64,000 nucleotides of DNA from Polaromonas sp. YR568 (GTDB lineage: Bacteria > Pseudomonadota > Gammaproteobacteria > Burkholderiales > Burkholderiaceae_C): contig CAMCUN010000011.1 in NCBI GenBank assembly GCA_945878995.1, forward strand, positions 1 to 64,000. Direction: 5' to 3'. The number at the start of each line of letters is the position of its first letter. Position 1 is the stretch's first letter. Shown here piece after piece: positions 5,835-13,516 of this stretch. Under the pieces are notes generated by a model. That model did no database searches, had not been told where the DNA came from, and saw nothing but the letters and a program-made list of their open reading frames with translations. A program made the position numbers and the translations under genes.

Positions 5835-6896
5835 ATGTCCATTCTTGAGCTCACCGAACCCCATGTGTTTTTGCGCAACTGCTGGTACGTGGCCAGCGTC
5901 ACGCACGAGGTCGCGCGCAGCCCCAAGGCCGTGCGCCTGCTCGGCGATGACGTCGTGCTCTACCGCCGCGAAGACGGCTCGCCCGTGGCCCTGGAAGACG
6001 CCTGCCCGCACCGCAAGCTGCCGCTGTCCATGGGCCGCATCAAAGGCGACGCCATCGAGTGCGGCTACCACGGCCTGACCTTCGACGGCTGCGGCACCTG
6101 CATTGAGGCACCCACGCAAGCGCAGATTCCGGCGCTGGCCCGGGTGCGCAGCTACCCGGTGCAAGACCGCTATGGCCTGCTGTGGATCTGGATGGGCGAT
6201 GCCGCATTGGCCCAGCGCACGCCGGTGCTGGAGATCGAGCACCACAACGACCCCGGCTGGCACATGACCACCGGCGACAGCCTGCGCTGCGGCTGCCACT
6301 ACCTCTGGCTGGTCGACAACCTGCTGGACCCGTCGCACGTGGCCTGGGTGCACCGCAACAGCTTTGCCTCTTCGGGCACCGAGGACACGCCGCTGCAGAT
6401 CGAGGCCGACGCGCAAGGCGTGGTCTGCAGCCGCTGGATCTACGGCCAGCCACCACCGCCGTTTTACGCGCCGCTGGTCAAGTTCGAGGGACCGGCCGAC
6501 CGGCTTCAGCACTACGAGGTGCGCCTGCCCTCGATCGCCATCAACCGCAGCACCTTCGCGCCTGCCGGCATGGGTGGGCCGGGGGTGGGCGAGGATGCGC
6601 GCATTTACCGCATGGTGTCCTATAACTTCCTCACGCCCGTCGATGCCAACAACACGCTGTACTTCTGGCTGCAGCACCGCAACACCGACCCGCACGACCA
6701 GGCCCTGACCGAGCGCATTGCCGCCGGCGCCAAAGCCGCCTTCGAAGAAGACCGCCAAATTCTGGAGGCCGTGCACCAAGGCATGAAGCACAAGCGCACG
6801 CCCAACATCGGCCTGCTGCTGGACGCCGGCGCTTCCCGCCTGCGCCGGGCCCTGGCCGAGCGCATCGCGGCCGAGCAGGGCCAGGAGCCAGCATGA
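5835..6896 (+). CDS. Rieske non-heme iron oxygenase (VanA-like), putative N-demethylase
   Basis: A 353-residue Rieske oxygenase alpha subunit sits inside the hut operon. The Rieske 2Fe-2S ligands are C-P-H (DACPHRKLP, about residue 55) and C-x2-H (CGYHGLTF, about residue 75). The catalytic domain carries [12 protein letters not shown], the mononuclear-iron motif of the VanA group. That group includes vanillate O-demethylase and the caffeine N-demethylases NdmA/NdmB. No reductase partner lies in the window. It follows hutF by 22 bp and overlaps hutH by 4 bp (ATGA), so it is translationally tied to histidine ammonia-lyase. I infer demethylation or hydroxylation of an N-methylated histidine or imidazole compound. 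The substrate is unproven. Confidence 0.85.
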
Positions 6897-8470
6897 ACAC
6901 GATCACACCGGGCCAGCTGGGCTGGCCGCTGATGCGTGAGATCCGCCTGGGTCCCCAGCGCCTGGACCTGGATGCTGCCGCCTGGGCCGACGTGCAGGCC
7001 AGCGCCGATGCGGTGGCCCGGGTGCTGGCCAGTGGCCAGGTGGTCTACGGCCTGAACACCGGCTTTGGCAAGCTGGCCAGCACCCGCATCCCGGACAGCG
7101 ACCATGCCCAGCTGCAGCTCAATTTGCTGCGCTCGCACGCCGTGGGCGTGGGCGAGCCCATGACGGACGCCGTGGTGCGGCTGATGCTGCTGCTCAAGGC
7201 GGCCAGCCTGGGGCGCGGCCACTCCGGCGTGAGCCCGGCCCTGGTGCGCGGCCTGCTGGACCTGCTGGCGCACGACCTGCTCCCGGTGGTGCCGTGCAAG
7301 GGCTCGGTGGGCGCCAGCGGCGACCTGGCCCCCCTGGCCCACCTGTGTCTGCCGCTGATAGGTGAAGGCCAGGTGCGGCTGCGCGGCCAGACCCTGCCCG
7401 CTGGCCAGGCCCTGCAGGCCTGCGGCCTGCAGCCCATCGCGCTGGGCGCCAAAGAGGGCTTGGCGCTGATCAACGGCACCCAGGCCTCGACCGCACTGGC
7501 CATTGAAGGCTTGTTTGCCGCCGAGCAGCTGCTGTGCGCGGGCGTGCTGGTGGGCGCGCTCACGCTGGACGCGGCGCGTGGCAGCGACGCGCCCTTCGAT
7601 CCGCGCATCCATGCGCTGCGTGGCCAGCCGGGTCAGATGGACACCGCCGCCGCCTACCGGGCGCTGCTGGACGGCAGCGAAATCCGCCGCTCCCACCTCG
7701 TCGATGACGAGCGCGTGCAAGACCCCTACTGCCTGCGCTGCCAGCCGCAGGTCATGGGCGCCTGCCTGGACCAGCTGCGCCACGCCGCGCAGGTGCTGCT
7801 GCGCGAAGCCAACGCAGTGACCGACAACCCGCTGGTCTTTCACGGCCCGGGCGGGGACACCTTGCTGTCGGGCGGCAACTTCCATGCCGAACCGGTGGCC
7901 CTGGCCGCCGACGGCATGGCGCTGGCGATTGCCGAGATAGGCGCCATCGCCGAGCGGCGCGTGGCCATGTTGGTGGACAGCGCCATCTCGGGCCTGCCGG
8001 CCTTTCTCACGCCCGCGCCGGGTCTCAACTCGGGCTTCATGATCGTCCATGTCACGGCCGCCGCCCTGGCGTCGGAGAACAAGTCGCTGGCCCATCCCGC
8101 CAGCGTGGACAGCCTGCCCACTTCGGCCAACCAGGAGGACCACGTCAGCATGGCCACCTTCGCTGCCCGCCGGCTGGGCCCCATGGCCGAGAACACCGCG
8201 CACATCCTGGCCATCGAGCTGCTGGCCGCCGCCCAGGGCATAGAGTCGCACCGGCCCATGCGCAGCACCGACACGCTAGAGCGCCTGCATGCTCAGGTGC
8301 GCAGCTTCAGTGCGGTGCTCACGCAGGACCGCAGTCTTGCCCCTGACATGGAGGCCGCCTCGCAGTGGCTGCGCAGCCCGGCATTTTTTGACGTGGTCCT
8401 GCCCCAGTCCCCCGCAGTTCTGCAGCAGGCCATGGACCGGCTGTTTTGCACCGGCCAGGACGCGGCTTAA
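6893..8470 (+). CDS. hutH: Histidine ammonia-lyase (histidase)
   Basis: First committed enzyme of histidine degradation: eliminates ammonia from L-histidine to give urocanate. The 525-residue product has [12 protein letters not shown] near residue 48 and [17 protein letters not shown] near residue 143, where the A-S-G triad becomes the MIO electrophile. [15 protein letters not shown] and TDNPLVF follow, as expected in the family. The ATG overlaps the Rieske stop. A longer C-terminal ending is ordinary for proteobacterial histidases. It is the last gene of the rightward operon and meets soxG tail to tail 21 bp away. Confidence 0.97.
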
Positions 8471-8491
8471 GGCAACTCGGCTGCTGCTGCG

Positions 8492-11951: not shown

Positions 11952-12211
11952 GGCGCGACCTCCACGGCTTGGCAGTCCAAGATGGCCTGGCTGTGCGGGT
12001 CGCGCCGCACCTGCAGCCAGCTGCGGCAGCCATGCTGGTGCCACCACAGCTCGCGCACCGGGGTATCGGGGTTGCGGCGGTAATAAAGGTGCTCGGCCCA
12101 GGCCGGGTCTGCCAGGGCCTCGGCTTGCGTGGGCCGCTCGCTGAATTCACCGGTGCAGACGAACTCTTGTTCGCTGCGGGGACCGCAAAAAGGACAGGTC
12201 AGCTGCAGCAT
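11948..12211 (-). CDS. soxD: Sarcosine oxidase delta subunit, zinc-binding
   Basis: 87-residue subunit with the delta-family layout: LTCPFCGPRSEQEF at the N-terminus supplies a C-x2-C zinc pair, and WWHQHGCRSW near residue 57 supplies the remaining His and Cys ligands. TLYYRRNP-like and LWWHQHGC segments are characteristic of SoxD. It lies between soxB (6-bp gap) and soxA (4-bp overlap), the usual B-D-A-G order. Confidence 0.93.
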   Translation of the reverse strand: MLQLTCPFCGPRSEQEFVCTGEFSERPTQAEALADPAWAEHLYYRRNPDTPVRELWWHQHGCRSWLQVRRDPHSQAILDCQAVEVAP

Positions 12212-12217
12212 GGGGCC

Positions 12218-13516
12218 TTAAAAGCGGTTGGACGCGCTGGCGGTCTCAAAATGCAGCCGCCCGCTGGCAAAGCGCTCCAGCGAGAACGGCGCGCAAAAGC
12301 GGTCGGCTTGGCCGCGCGCCATGAGCCCCGCCAGGCTGCGCCCACCCGCAGGAATCGACTTGAAGCCGCCCGAGCCCCAGCCCGTGCTCACGCACAGGCC
12401 CTCTACCTCGGTGAGCGAGAGGATGGGGCTGGTGTCGGCCGACAGGTCTATGGCCCCGCCCCAGGTCCGCAGCAGCTTGACGCGGGCCAGCGCCGGGAAC
12501 AGTTCCAGCAAGCCAGCCACGCAGTCCTCAATGACGTGGTGCTGGCCGCGCTGGGTCCACGACAGGCCCGCGTCCGGCCCGCCCCCTATCACCAACTCGC
12601 CCTTGTTCGACTGGCTGAAGTAAATCCCCAGCGCCGGGCAGGAGACGATCACATCGAGCATGGGCTTGAGCGGCTCGGAGACAAAGGCCTGCAGCGTCAG
12701 CGTCTCCAGCGGCAGGCGCAGACCCGCCAGGGCCGCCAGCCGGCTGCTCGCGCCCGCCACGGCCAGACCCAGCCGACCAGTGACGATGCGCCCGCGCGTG
12801 GTCTGCACGGCTTGCACGCGGCCACCCTGGCACTCGATGCCCGTGACCTCGCAGTTTTCAATGATGTCCACGCCCGCTGCGCTGGCCGCGCGCGCATAGG
12901 CCCAGGCCACTGCGTCGTGGCGCACCGTGCCGGCGCGGCCCTGCCAGGCACCAGCCAGCACGGGCAGGCGCTGGCCAACATCCCGGCGCAGCAGCGGCAG
13001 CAGGCGGTGCACCGCGTCGGCGTCCAGCAGCTCGTAGTCGGCGCCGGCCAGACGCATGGTGTGCATGCGCCGGCGCGCGTCGCGCAGCTTGCCCCAGGTT
13101 TGGATGATCTCGATTTGCCCGCGCTGGCTGACCATGAGGTTGAAGTCCAGGCGCTGACTAAGGTCTTCCCAAAGACGCAAATTTTCGTCCTGAAAGCGGA
13201 TACCCGGCTCGCGCAGGTAGTTTGAGCGGATCACAGTGGTGTTGCGGCCGGTGTTGCCGCCGCCCAGCCAGCCGCGTTCGAGCACGGCCACCCGGCTCAA
13301 GCCCTCATCGCGCGCCAGGTGCCAGGCAGTCGCCAAGCCGTGGCCGCCGCCGCCCACCACCACCGCGTCATAGTGGGGCGCAGGCTCGGCCAGGCGCCAG
13401 GCACGTGGCCAGCCGCGGTGGCCGCGCAGACCCTGACGAAAGAGCTCAAAAGTGTTGTAGCGCACGGGCACCAAAATGGGGCTTAGGCAAAAGCTGCCAG
13501 CCTCTTGTCTAGACAT
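12218..13516 (-). CDS. soxB: Sarcosine oxidase beta subunit-like flavoprotein
   Basis: FAD-dependent catalytic subunit that oxidises secondary or tertiary N-methyl amino acids. The motif [20 protein letters not shown] begins about 53 residues in, at the dinucleotide fold. [13 protein letters not shown] carries the histidine likely to bind FMN covalently in this family, and [17 protein letters not shown] lies at the C-terminus. I took the ATG at 13516, giving 432 residues. Most relatives begin near RYNTFELF, so a GTG at 13471 or 13465 is possible. The ATG is buried in a HutC-like palindrome (13504-13517). First gene of soxBDAG. Confidence 0.9.

Follow-up and report, generated by a model that had tools for sequence, protein, structure and literature searches.

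Within a 64-kb window of Polaromonas sp. YR568 (the whole stretch of DNA analyzed here, part of contig C11 of draft genome G000, which has 154 contigs and is 96.5% complete), a Rieske oxygenase gene lies inside a histidine utilization (hut) operon, next to genes for a heterotetrameric sarcosine oxidase-like enzyme (sox) and a polar-amino-acid ABC transporter. We propose that these genes may well form an accessory catabolic module, predicted to be under HutC control, that would demethylate an N-methylated amino acid or betaine, one that probably derives from histidine. The proposal draws on gene content and operon structure, on the conserved partners of the Rieske gene, on HutC-type operators in some relatives, and on a hut neighborhood that recurs in the Rieske family. 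The host is a freshwater-type bacterium whose closest named relatives in a contig search are Comamonadaceae metagenome-assembled genomes (MAGs), including Rhodoferax and Ramlibacter. Labels beginning with G denote genomes and those beginning with L denote loci (L004 is the locus of G827, L006 of G836, L007 of G813, L010 of G792, L011 of G822, and L023 of G798).

The core of the region is a single tight plus-strand operon, hutC-D-I-G-F-Rieske-hutH (positions 1084 to 8470), in which the Rieske gene starts 22 bp after hutF and overlaps hutH by 4 bp (5835 to 6896 and 6893 to 8470), just as an earlier note on this DNA had claimed when it described the Rieske gene as locked to hutH. The same note called the enzyme VanA type, which is borne out by its PF00355 and PF19112 (VanA_C) domains and by the metal-ligand motifs CPH-x16-CGYH (from residue 57) and DPSHVAWVH (from residue 165). 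The hut operon that it described stands as hutCDIGF-Rieske-hutH, with the amendment that hutU is divergent on the minus strand (1 to 985) and cut by the contig end; with HutU divided between two contig ends, the enzyme set from histidine to glutamate is complete in G000, together with HutC. NCBIfam equivalog cutoffs are passed by HutC, HutI, HutG, HutF, and HutH, and the Pfam cutoff is passed by HutD. The sox genes run in the order soxB-D-A-G on the minus strand, from 13465 to 8492; they are tail-to-tail with hutH and head-to-head with the gene for the ABC substrate-binding protein (SBP), and not head to head with the hut operon as first described. All four subunits claimed for this set are present (soxB passes TIGR01373, soxA falls slightly under its cutoff, soxG is a weak match, and soxD was recognized by reading). 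Beyond sox lie genes for the SBP, the permease, the ATPase, a creatininase-family protein, a glutathione S-transferase (GST), an HD-domain protein, and a CMD/peroxidase-related protein. The genes of the originally proposed extent (5835 to 13516) are real, and the functional neighborhood reaches approximately 18800.

In the mechanism we envisage, the transporter would import the N-methylated amino acid or betaine (probably a histidine derivative), the Rieske enzyme would hydroxylate an N-methyl group (or the carbon adjoining the nitrogen) and free formaldehyde or an amine, and the sarcosine oxidase-like tetramer would take off the last N-methyl group and hand it to tetrahydrofolate, after which the product would join the Hut route to glutamate where hut genes are present. 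An indirect hint of methyl removal by the Rieske enzyme comes from the surroundings of a 54% relative in Roseateles, where genes for S-(hydroxymethyl)glutathione dehydrogenase and synthase lie downstream on the same strand and point to formaldehyde production. A histidine-derived substrate is favored because regulation and recurrent neighbors both point in that direction. Sox-type enzymes perform alpha-N-methyl chemistry, and for this reason a compound of the hercynine/ergothioneine type would be our first candidate substrate and a ring-methylated histidine our second.

We placed the window proteins by tblastn (at least 60 bits) in 77 loci with Rieske relatives recovered from one contig scan. 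Among the 31 loci whose Rieske is approximately 51% identical or more, SBP/permease genes were present in 20, CMD in 16, sox in 14, creatininase-like genes in 12, GST in 11, HD in 10, and any hut gene in 7 (counting L004 by its remnants and L063 by hutF plus a 37% lyase); the corresponding numbers for the 46 loci at 44% identity or less were 0, 0, 1, 0, 0, 0, and 1. The loci are not independent of one another, and many stop at contig edges, such that absences are to be read as lower bounds on presence. The genus scan covered 61 genomes drawn from a larger group, many of them incomplete. Rieske matches at E ≤ 1e-60 occurred in 11 of these, four of which held only 35 to 38% relatives and were excluded as orthologs, and the ortholog (at least 75% identity) was found in the other 7, three of which (G000, G798, and G822) reach a completeness of 90% or more with contamination of 5% or less. 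A soxB ortholog (at least 86%) accompanied the Rieske gene in 7/7 genomes but was found in only 2 of the 54 without it (Rieske-less G782 carries a 46% soxB), while hutH, found in 22 of the 61, was present in 6/7 Rieske-positive and 16/54 Rieske-negative genomes (P = 0.007, with completeness uneven). More widely the Rieske gene is rare, with matches at E ≤ 1e-100 in 2 of 399 order genomes and 6 of 399 family genomes, its own genome included. Locus and genus counts thus identify sox, the transporter, and CMD, and not hutH, as the constant partners: the Rieske gene travels with these, and physical linkage to hut is not part of the conserved core. The co-occurrence of Rieske, hutH, and sox that the earlier note had singled out for checking holds for sox in all 7 Rieske genomes of the genus, whereas the linkage to hutH at the locus is lineage-limited and was lost at least once.

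The instability of this linkage can be followed among close relatives. The hutH gene directly follows the Rieske gene in G000, G813, G822, and the Ramlibacter loci L008 and L009, and it adjoins soxG at a contig end in G816; it is not at the post-Rieske place in G798, G792, L005, G836, and G827. G827, whose Rieske is 96% identical, carries a separate contig with hutH and hutU (L142), and no hutU was found in the ∼600 bp available beyond its hutC. A decayed hut operon is visible in this genome at positions 2137 to 4150 of L140 (G827:C300), where a remnant of hutD and the initial codons of hutH persist beside an intact hutC and Rieske gene. In a tree of Rieske plus soxA plus soxB, hut-linked and hut-less loci are interleaved, which, together with the loss in G827 and the absence in G798, indicates that Rieske-sox genes can persist without adjacent hut enzymes.

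As a separate observation, a LigB-family dioxygenase gene (L005, 257 to 1156; L010, 544 to 1380; L129, 294 to 1100) lies directly upstream of the Rieske gene in hut-less loci and upstream of hutC in G822; PF02900 was tested in L010, and the other copies were assigned by similarity. A candidate gene beside it, C35b, was discarded as an open reading frame (ORF) antisense to an SDR-looking ORF and with no Pfam match.

A HutC-type palindrome, TTGTMTAKACAA, precedes hut and, in some relatives, also the sox, SBP, ATPase/creatininase, or Rieske operons, including in loci without hut genes. Allowing up to 3 mismatches, the 14-mer is matched 6 times within the window, compared with 1.14 expected, and 0 of 100 shuffles reached 6. 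Sequence matches predict operators on both the hut promoter (1048) and sox (13504), as the earlier note had proposed in describing a shared HutC-like site; the latter would lie ∼40 bp upstream of soxB, since soxB probably starts with the GTG at 13465. The site at 16143 is weaker evidence, being inside the first codons of the creatininase-like gene. A scan for TTGTNTANACAA at up to 1 mismatch recovered 31 sites in 607 kb from 41 loci, which include close relatives and loci of one genome; shuffling of mononucleotides, which is a lenient control, gave an expectation of 6.7. Of the 31 sites, 24 lie close to where a hut or module gene starts, no more than 350 bp ahead of that point and no more than 60 bp past it, and they are spread over 16 of the 41 loci. 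Operators precede both hutC/hutU and sox/SBP in G000, G827, and G816, and soxB in L008 and L009 has a version with 2 mismatches. Among hut-less loci, operators are found before the C21-Rieske genes of G769 (exact), before the creatininase gene of G648 (exact), and before SBP in L014, L016, G477, and G849, with a further one before 2OG-ABC-Rieske in G477. The hut operons of G477, G769, and G575 are of the ordinary kind, bear this motif, and encode a HutC of 59 to 60% identity; a second HutC of G575 is 39% identical.

Genome-wide, all three sites in the 6.3 Mb of G477 are at hut or the Rieske cluster, as are 3 of 4 in G816, 3 of 9 in G000, and 2 of 8 in G769, where the module site is the only exact match; a Pinisolibacter genome has 3 sites, 2 of them at its hut-Rieske locus. 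G822 has 3 sites with just one at hutC, and G798 and G792 have none at the module. Hut or module genes account for 22 of the 50 sites found across 11 genomes, one of them in G813:C58, and none of the 10 inspected among the remaining 28 is near module genes, most being inside other genes; in a further scan of 8 genomes the figure was 8 of 53. Assuming uniformly distributed sites, rough chance probabilities of the observed locations are 1e-5 (G477), 9e-5 (G816), and 4e-6 (Pinisolibacter). One site recurs in the ABC region of two genomes (G000:C25 and G827:C282), and G847 (C76) has an exact site 99 bp ahead of a gene whose product shares 29% identity with HutC.

Other branches of the Rieske family show a related association. 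In L193 (genome G845) a second Rieske gene (49%) lies beyond a hut operon, whose hutF is cut by the contig end, and a His-type transporter; an exact palindrome is found 77 bp upstream, and HisC-like and GlcD-like genes follow. The HisC-like transaminase beside related Rieske genes passes the TIGR01141 cutoff in L193 and L135. We opened 12 plasmid contexts of Rieske matches, one of them unannotated and checked by tblastn, with gene tables that are incomplete: hut genes occur near the Rieske gene in two (hutC and hutH in Aureimonas AU20, hutC in Mesorhizobium AR02), and a HisC-annotated or class I/II aminotransferase follows it in five (Shinella, Gemmobacter, Roseateles, Aureimonas, and Mesorhizobium AR02). 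No site of this motif was found before the Rieske gene on the alphaproteobacterial plasmids, and three plasmid contexts of soxB matches hold sox operons without an annotated Rieske gene. In L063 a 66% Rieske is accompanied by hutF, a 2OG oxygenase, an AspA-like hydrolase, an ornithine-cyclodeaminase-like protein, and a HAL-like lyase that has GSVGSADL in place of GSVGASGDL, lacks the MIO triad, and has an ergothionase as its best solved match. Taken together, the HutC-type operators shared in some of the relatives, the repeated hut neighbors, and the HisC-like neighbors in sister clusters support the view that this Rieske family is recurrently linked with histidine catabolism.

Several side observations concern these branches. 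The hut loci of two Rieske-less relatives (G799, L169 8068 to 14208; G782, L170 7910 to 8917) carry, between hutU and hutH, an ornithine-cyclodeaminase-like gene whose product is 85 to 89% identical to that of L063, and the hut locus of G799 also holds a 72% relative of the L063 HAL-like lyase. In Mesorhizobium AR02 a second Rieske (L198, 19461 to 20596), behind a second ABC transporter, is annotated as two genes, a Rieske part and a C-terminal part. A Rhodobacteraceae MAG (L027, 1720 to 3931) has a HisC-like aminotransferase, under the TIGR01141 cutoff, beside sox and Rieske genes and accompanied by two sulfopyruvate/phosphonopyruvate-decarboxylase-like subunits.

A number of results weigh against a HutC-controlled, histidine-directed module. 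Four conserved proteins (HD, GST, creatininase-like, and CMD) are not accounted for by simple demethylation to histidine, and the co-occurrence with hutH is based on 7 Rieske genomes of uneven completeness. The module does not depend on hut enzymes in all members: the G827 locus has no hutI, hutG, hutF, or hutH, yet Rieske-sox is kept, and G798, a 100% complete genome, has Rieske-sox while no hutH, HutC, or operator at the module was found. In G806 (78% complete) a soxB ortholog is present and Rieske, hutH, and HutC were not found. With respect to operators, 25 of the 41 scanned loci lack a site close to any hut or module gene, including G792, L012, L013, L017, L063, and L081; G575 has a site at hut only, hut-linked G822 has none at sox, and none was found in the 160 bp available upstream of soxB in G813. 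On plasmids of Ruegeria and Paracoccus, the Rieske, CMD, ABC, and sox clusters come with LysR regulators and lack annotated hut genes, those of Ruegeria having no site at the module, and G648 has an exact site yet no HutC was found in its genome. Reversed-pattern controls gave 33 sites against 50 in the 11 genomes and 65 against 53 in the 8 genomes; because there is no clear genome-wide enrichment, the operator argument rests on location.

The strongest rival explanation, which we consider unlikely, is that the module serves to break down an N-methyl heterocycle other than a histidine, for example homarine (N-methylpicolinate). Here the Rieske enzyme would open the oxidation of the ring, GST, HD, and amidohydrolase-like enzymes would process the ring-opened product, the sox tetramer would be an N-methylglutamate dehydrogenase giving glutamate, and the hut linkage and HutC sites would reflect a common glutamate end product or operon convenience. 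Mgd is said to take part in homarine catabolism in a report cited in PMC13390433, the Rieske-CMD-ABC-sox plasmids of marine-type Ruegeria and Paracoccus fit a route of this kind, and the GST, HD, and amidohydrolase proteins with their LigB-like neighbor (L005, L010, and L023) would suit ring cleavage. Homarine degradation nevertheless leaves unexplained the HutC-type operators on Rieske, SBP, and sox operons and the hut neighbors in several branches. We know of no link between homarine catabolism and hut or HutC.

We would not expect it to be the case, either, that two independent operons merely lie side by side, with Rieske-sox serving some other N-methyl amino acid or betaine and hut as a hitchhiker. 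The interleaving of hut-linked and hut-less loci, the loss of hut genes from the G827 locus and their absence from the loci of G798, G792, L005, and L006, and the majority of scanned loci without an operator near hut or module genes are consistent with such independence, but hut operons and modules share operators even on different contigs (G477 and G769), and G827 retains hutC with its operator and the soxB site after losing the adjacent hut enzymes. Simple glycine betaine/sarcosine catabolism, in which the Rieske would be a GbcA-like demethylase and soxBDAG a true sarcosine oxidase, appears improbable: soxA and soxB are TSOX-like and the only sister-cluster reductase scanned (L135) matches the GbcB model, under its cutoff, but a scan of 20 window proteins encoded between 1084 and 23582 found no dimethylglycine demethylase, NCBIfam listed no betaine oxygenase for the Rieske, and the hut/HutC association speaks against this reading.

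Returning to a histidine-derived substrate, we tentatively put forward a more specific possibility, namely, an oxidative route for hercynine or ergothioneine into Hut that proceeds without ergothionase. The Rieske enzyme would demethylate or cleave the betaine, sox would move the last methyl group to folate, a HisC-like transaminase would close the sister systems, and GST, HD, and CMD would handle sulfur or the ring, and the whole would have come under HutC control in several lineages (the window's genus, the genus of G477 and G769, Pinisolibacter, and the L193 genome). The N-methylhistidine catabolism proposed by the earlier note is thus partly supported by the comparisons made here: its direction, a tie to histidine catabolism, appears right in view of the operators and the hut and HisC-like neighbors, while its specific pathway is not borne out in the form given there, in view of the lineage-limited hutH linkage, G798, and the unaccounted-for partners. 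Its observation was largely right once orientation and extent are corrected. If such a route exists, it would represent an overlooked entry branch of histidine degradation for methylated histidines (ergothioneine, its precursor, and anserine), in which a Rieske oxygenase and a folate-linked oxidase operate under a histidine regulator. A Rieske clade that carries no annotation beyond aromatic ring-hydroxylating dioxygenase, and several of its unexplained neighbors, would then have a function that can be tested. Even with another substrate, the conserved genes and the mapped operators narrow down where to look. No description of this system appeared among the matches listed in a literature search with small coverage of subscription papers.

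Table 1. Genes and predicted operators of the hut-Rieske-sox region, in window coordinates
Feature	Position	Strand	Basis and remarks
hutU (urocanase)	1..985	-	Cut by contig end, divergent from hutC; PF01175 210 bits (G000:C11:5-544), other piece C13:1-81; tblastn
HutC-type operator CTTGTCTAGTCAAG between hutU and hutC	1048..1061		Predicted from sequence match
hutC, GntR/HutC-family repressor	1084..1818	+	TIGR02018 279 bits, cutoff 220
hutD	1815..2387	+	PF05962 129.7 bits
hutI, imidazolonepropionase	2384..3628	+	TIGR01224 448 bits, cutoff 298
hutG, N-formylglutamate deformylase	3621..4421	+	TIGR02017 339 bits, cutoff 279
hutF, formimidoylglutamate deiminase	4418..5812	+	TIGR02022 483 bits, cutoff 413
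Rieske oxygenase, VanA_C type	5835..6896	+	PF19112 150 bits, PF00355 78 bits; motifs
hutH, histidine ammonia-lyase	6893..8470	+	TIGR01225 657 bits; GSVGASGDL, ASG (MIO) triad intact
soxG-like subunit, start uncertain	8492..8998	-	TIGR01375 28 bits, far under cutoff 144
soxA-like alpha subunit, folate-binding GCV_T domain	8994..11951	-	TIGR01372 1051 bits, slightly under cutoff 1164; PF01571, PF17806; TSOX alpha 1vrq
soxD-like delta subunit, 87 aa	11948..12211	-	Read from sequence; 60-68% homologs at same position in L005-L011, L023
soxB-like beta subunit, likely GTG start 13465	12218..13465	-	TIGR01373 532 bits, cutoff 529; TSOX beta 1vrq
HutC-type operator upstream of soxB	13504..13517		Predicted; same place in G827, G816; 2 mismatches in L008/L009
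ABC substrate-binding protein, polar amino acid type	13704..14498	+	PF00497
ABC permease, polar amino acid type	14517..15284	+	PF00528, TIGR01726
ABC ATPase, polar amino acid type	15331..16107	-	PF00005; best NCBIfam GlnQ 320 bits, under cutoff
Creatininase-family amidohydrolase, not creatininase proper	16137..16925	+	PF02633 185 bits; TIGR04448 87 bits, cutoff 235; start inferred from homologs
Weaker HutC-type site, 37 bp before ATPase	16143..16156		Within first codons of creatininase-like gene, coding constraint possible; same in G827, G816, G813
GST, MaiA-like	16922..17572	+	Under MaiA model cutoff
HD-domain protein, weakly like PhnZ/TmpB oxygenases	17569..18195	+	TIGR03276 34 bits, cutoff 215; no Pfam match
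CMD/peroxidase-related protein	18210..18800	+	TIGR01926 96 bits, cutoff 82

After CMD, between 18873 and 24268, the window continues with FMO-like, Asp/Glu racemase/arylmalonate-decarboxylase-like, and aldehyde dehydrogenase genes and then a gene of 227 aa; the first three are shared with G827 and were not found after CMD in G816, G822, and G792. Three candidate interpretations of individual genes were ruled out: HutH of the window as an ergothionase, by its intact MIO triad; creatinine degradation, the creatininase-like protein being far under the equivalog cutoff (Table 1); and replacement of HutU by the Rieske enzyme, hutU being present at the contig end.

Among known systems, the ergothionase route (6s7j; PMC13405746) also breaks down a trimethylated histidine, and an ergothionase-like lyase sits with a Rieske of this clade in L063; in the window's genome, by contrast, HutH is the sole aromatic lyase found (the only PF00221 match), with no second lyase, and retains the ASG triad. 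Homarine catabolism (Nat Microbiol 2026, as cited in PMC13390433) reportedly involves a sox-like Mgd tetramer. Like heterotetrameric sarcosine oxidase and N-methylglutamate dehydrogenase, the window sox has four subunits with a folate-domain alpha and an FAD beta subunit; it differs in its weak soxG match, in its clustering with a Rieske gene, and in the HutC control predicted from its site. With the canonical hut operon and HutC regulon the window shares the regulator family, the hut gene set, and the hutC-hutU palindromes, and PMC12977541 describes urocanate as the ligand of Pseudomonas HutC; the window differs in that putative operators, of a predicted recognition sequence, also precede the Rieske, sox, ABC, and creatininase-like set. 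Finally, the window Rieske shares its domain pair and metal-ligand motifs with VanA_C-type enzymes of known structure (DdmC 3gb4, 7qwt, and NdmA 6ick), its best matches in the PDB being moderate (146.7 and 141.4 bits, one of them dicamba O-demethylase) and that to NdmA reaching 71.9 bits over residues 10 to 188 only. In a tree of 45 rows picked by score plus outgroups, it belongs to a clade of its own with hut and sox partners.

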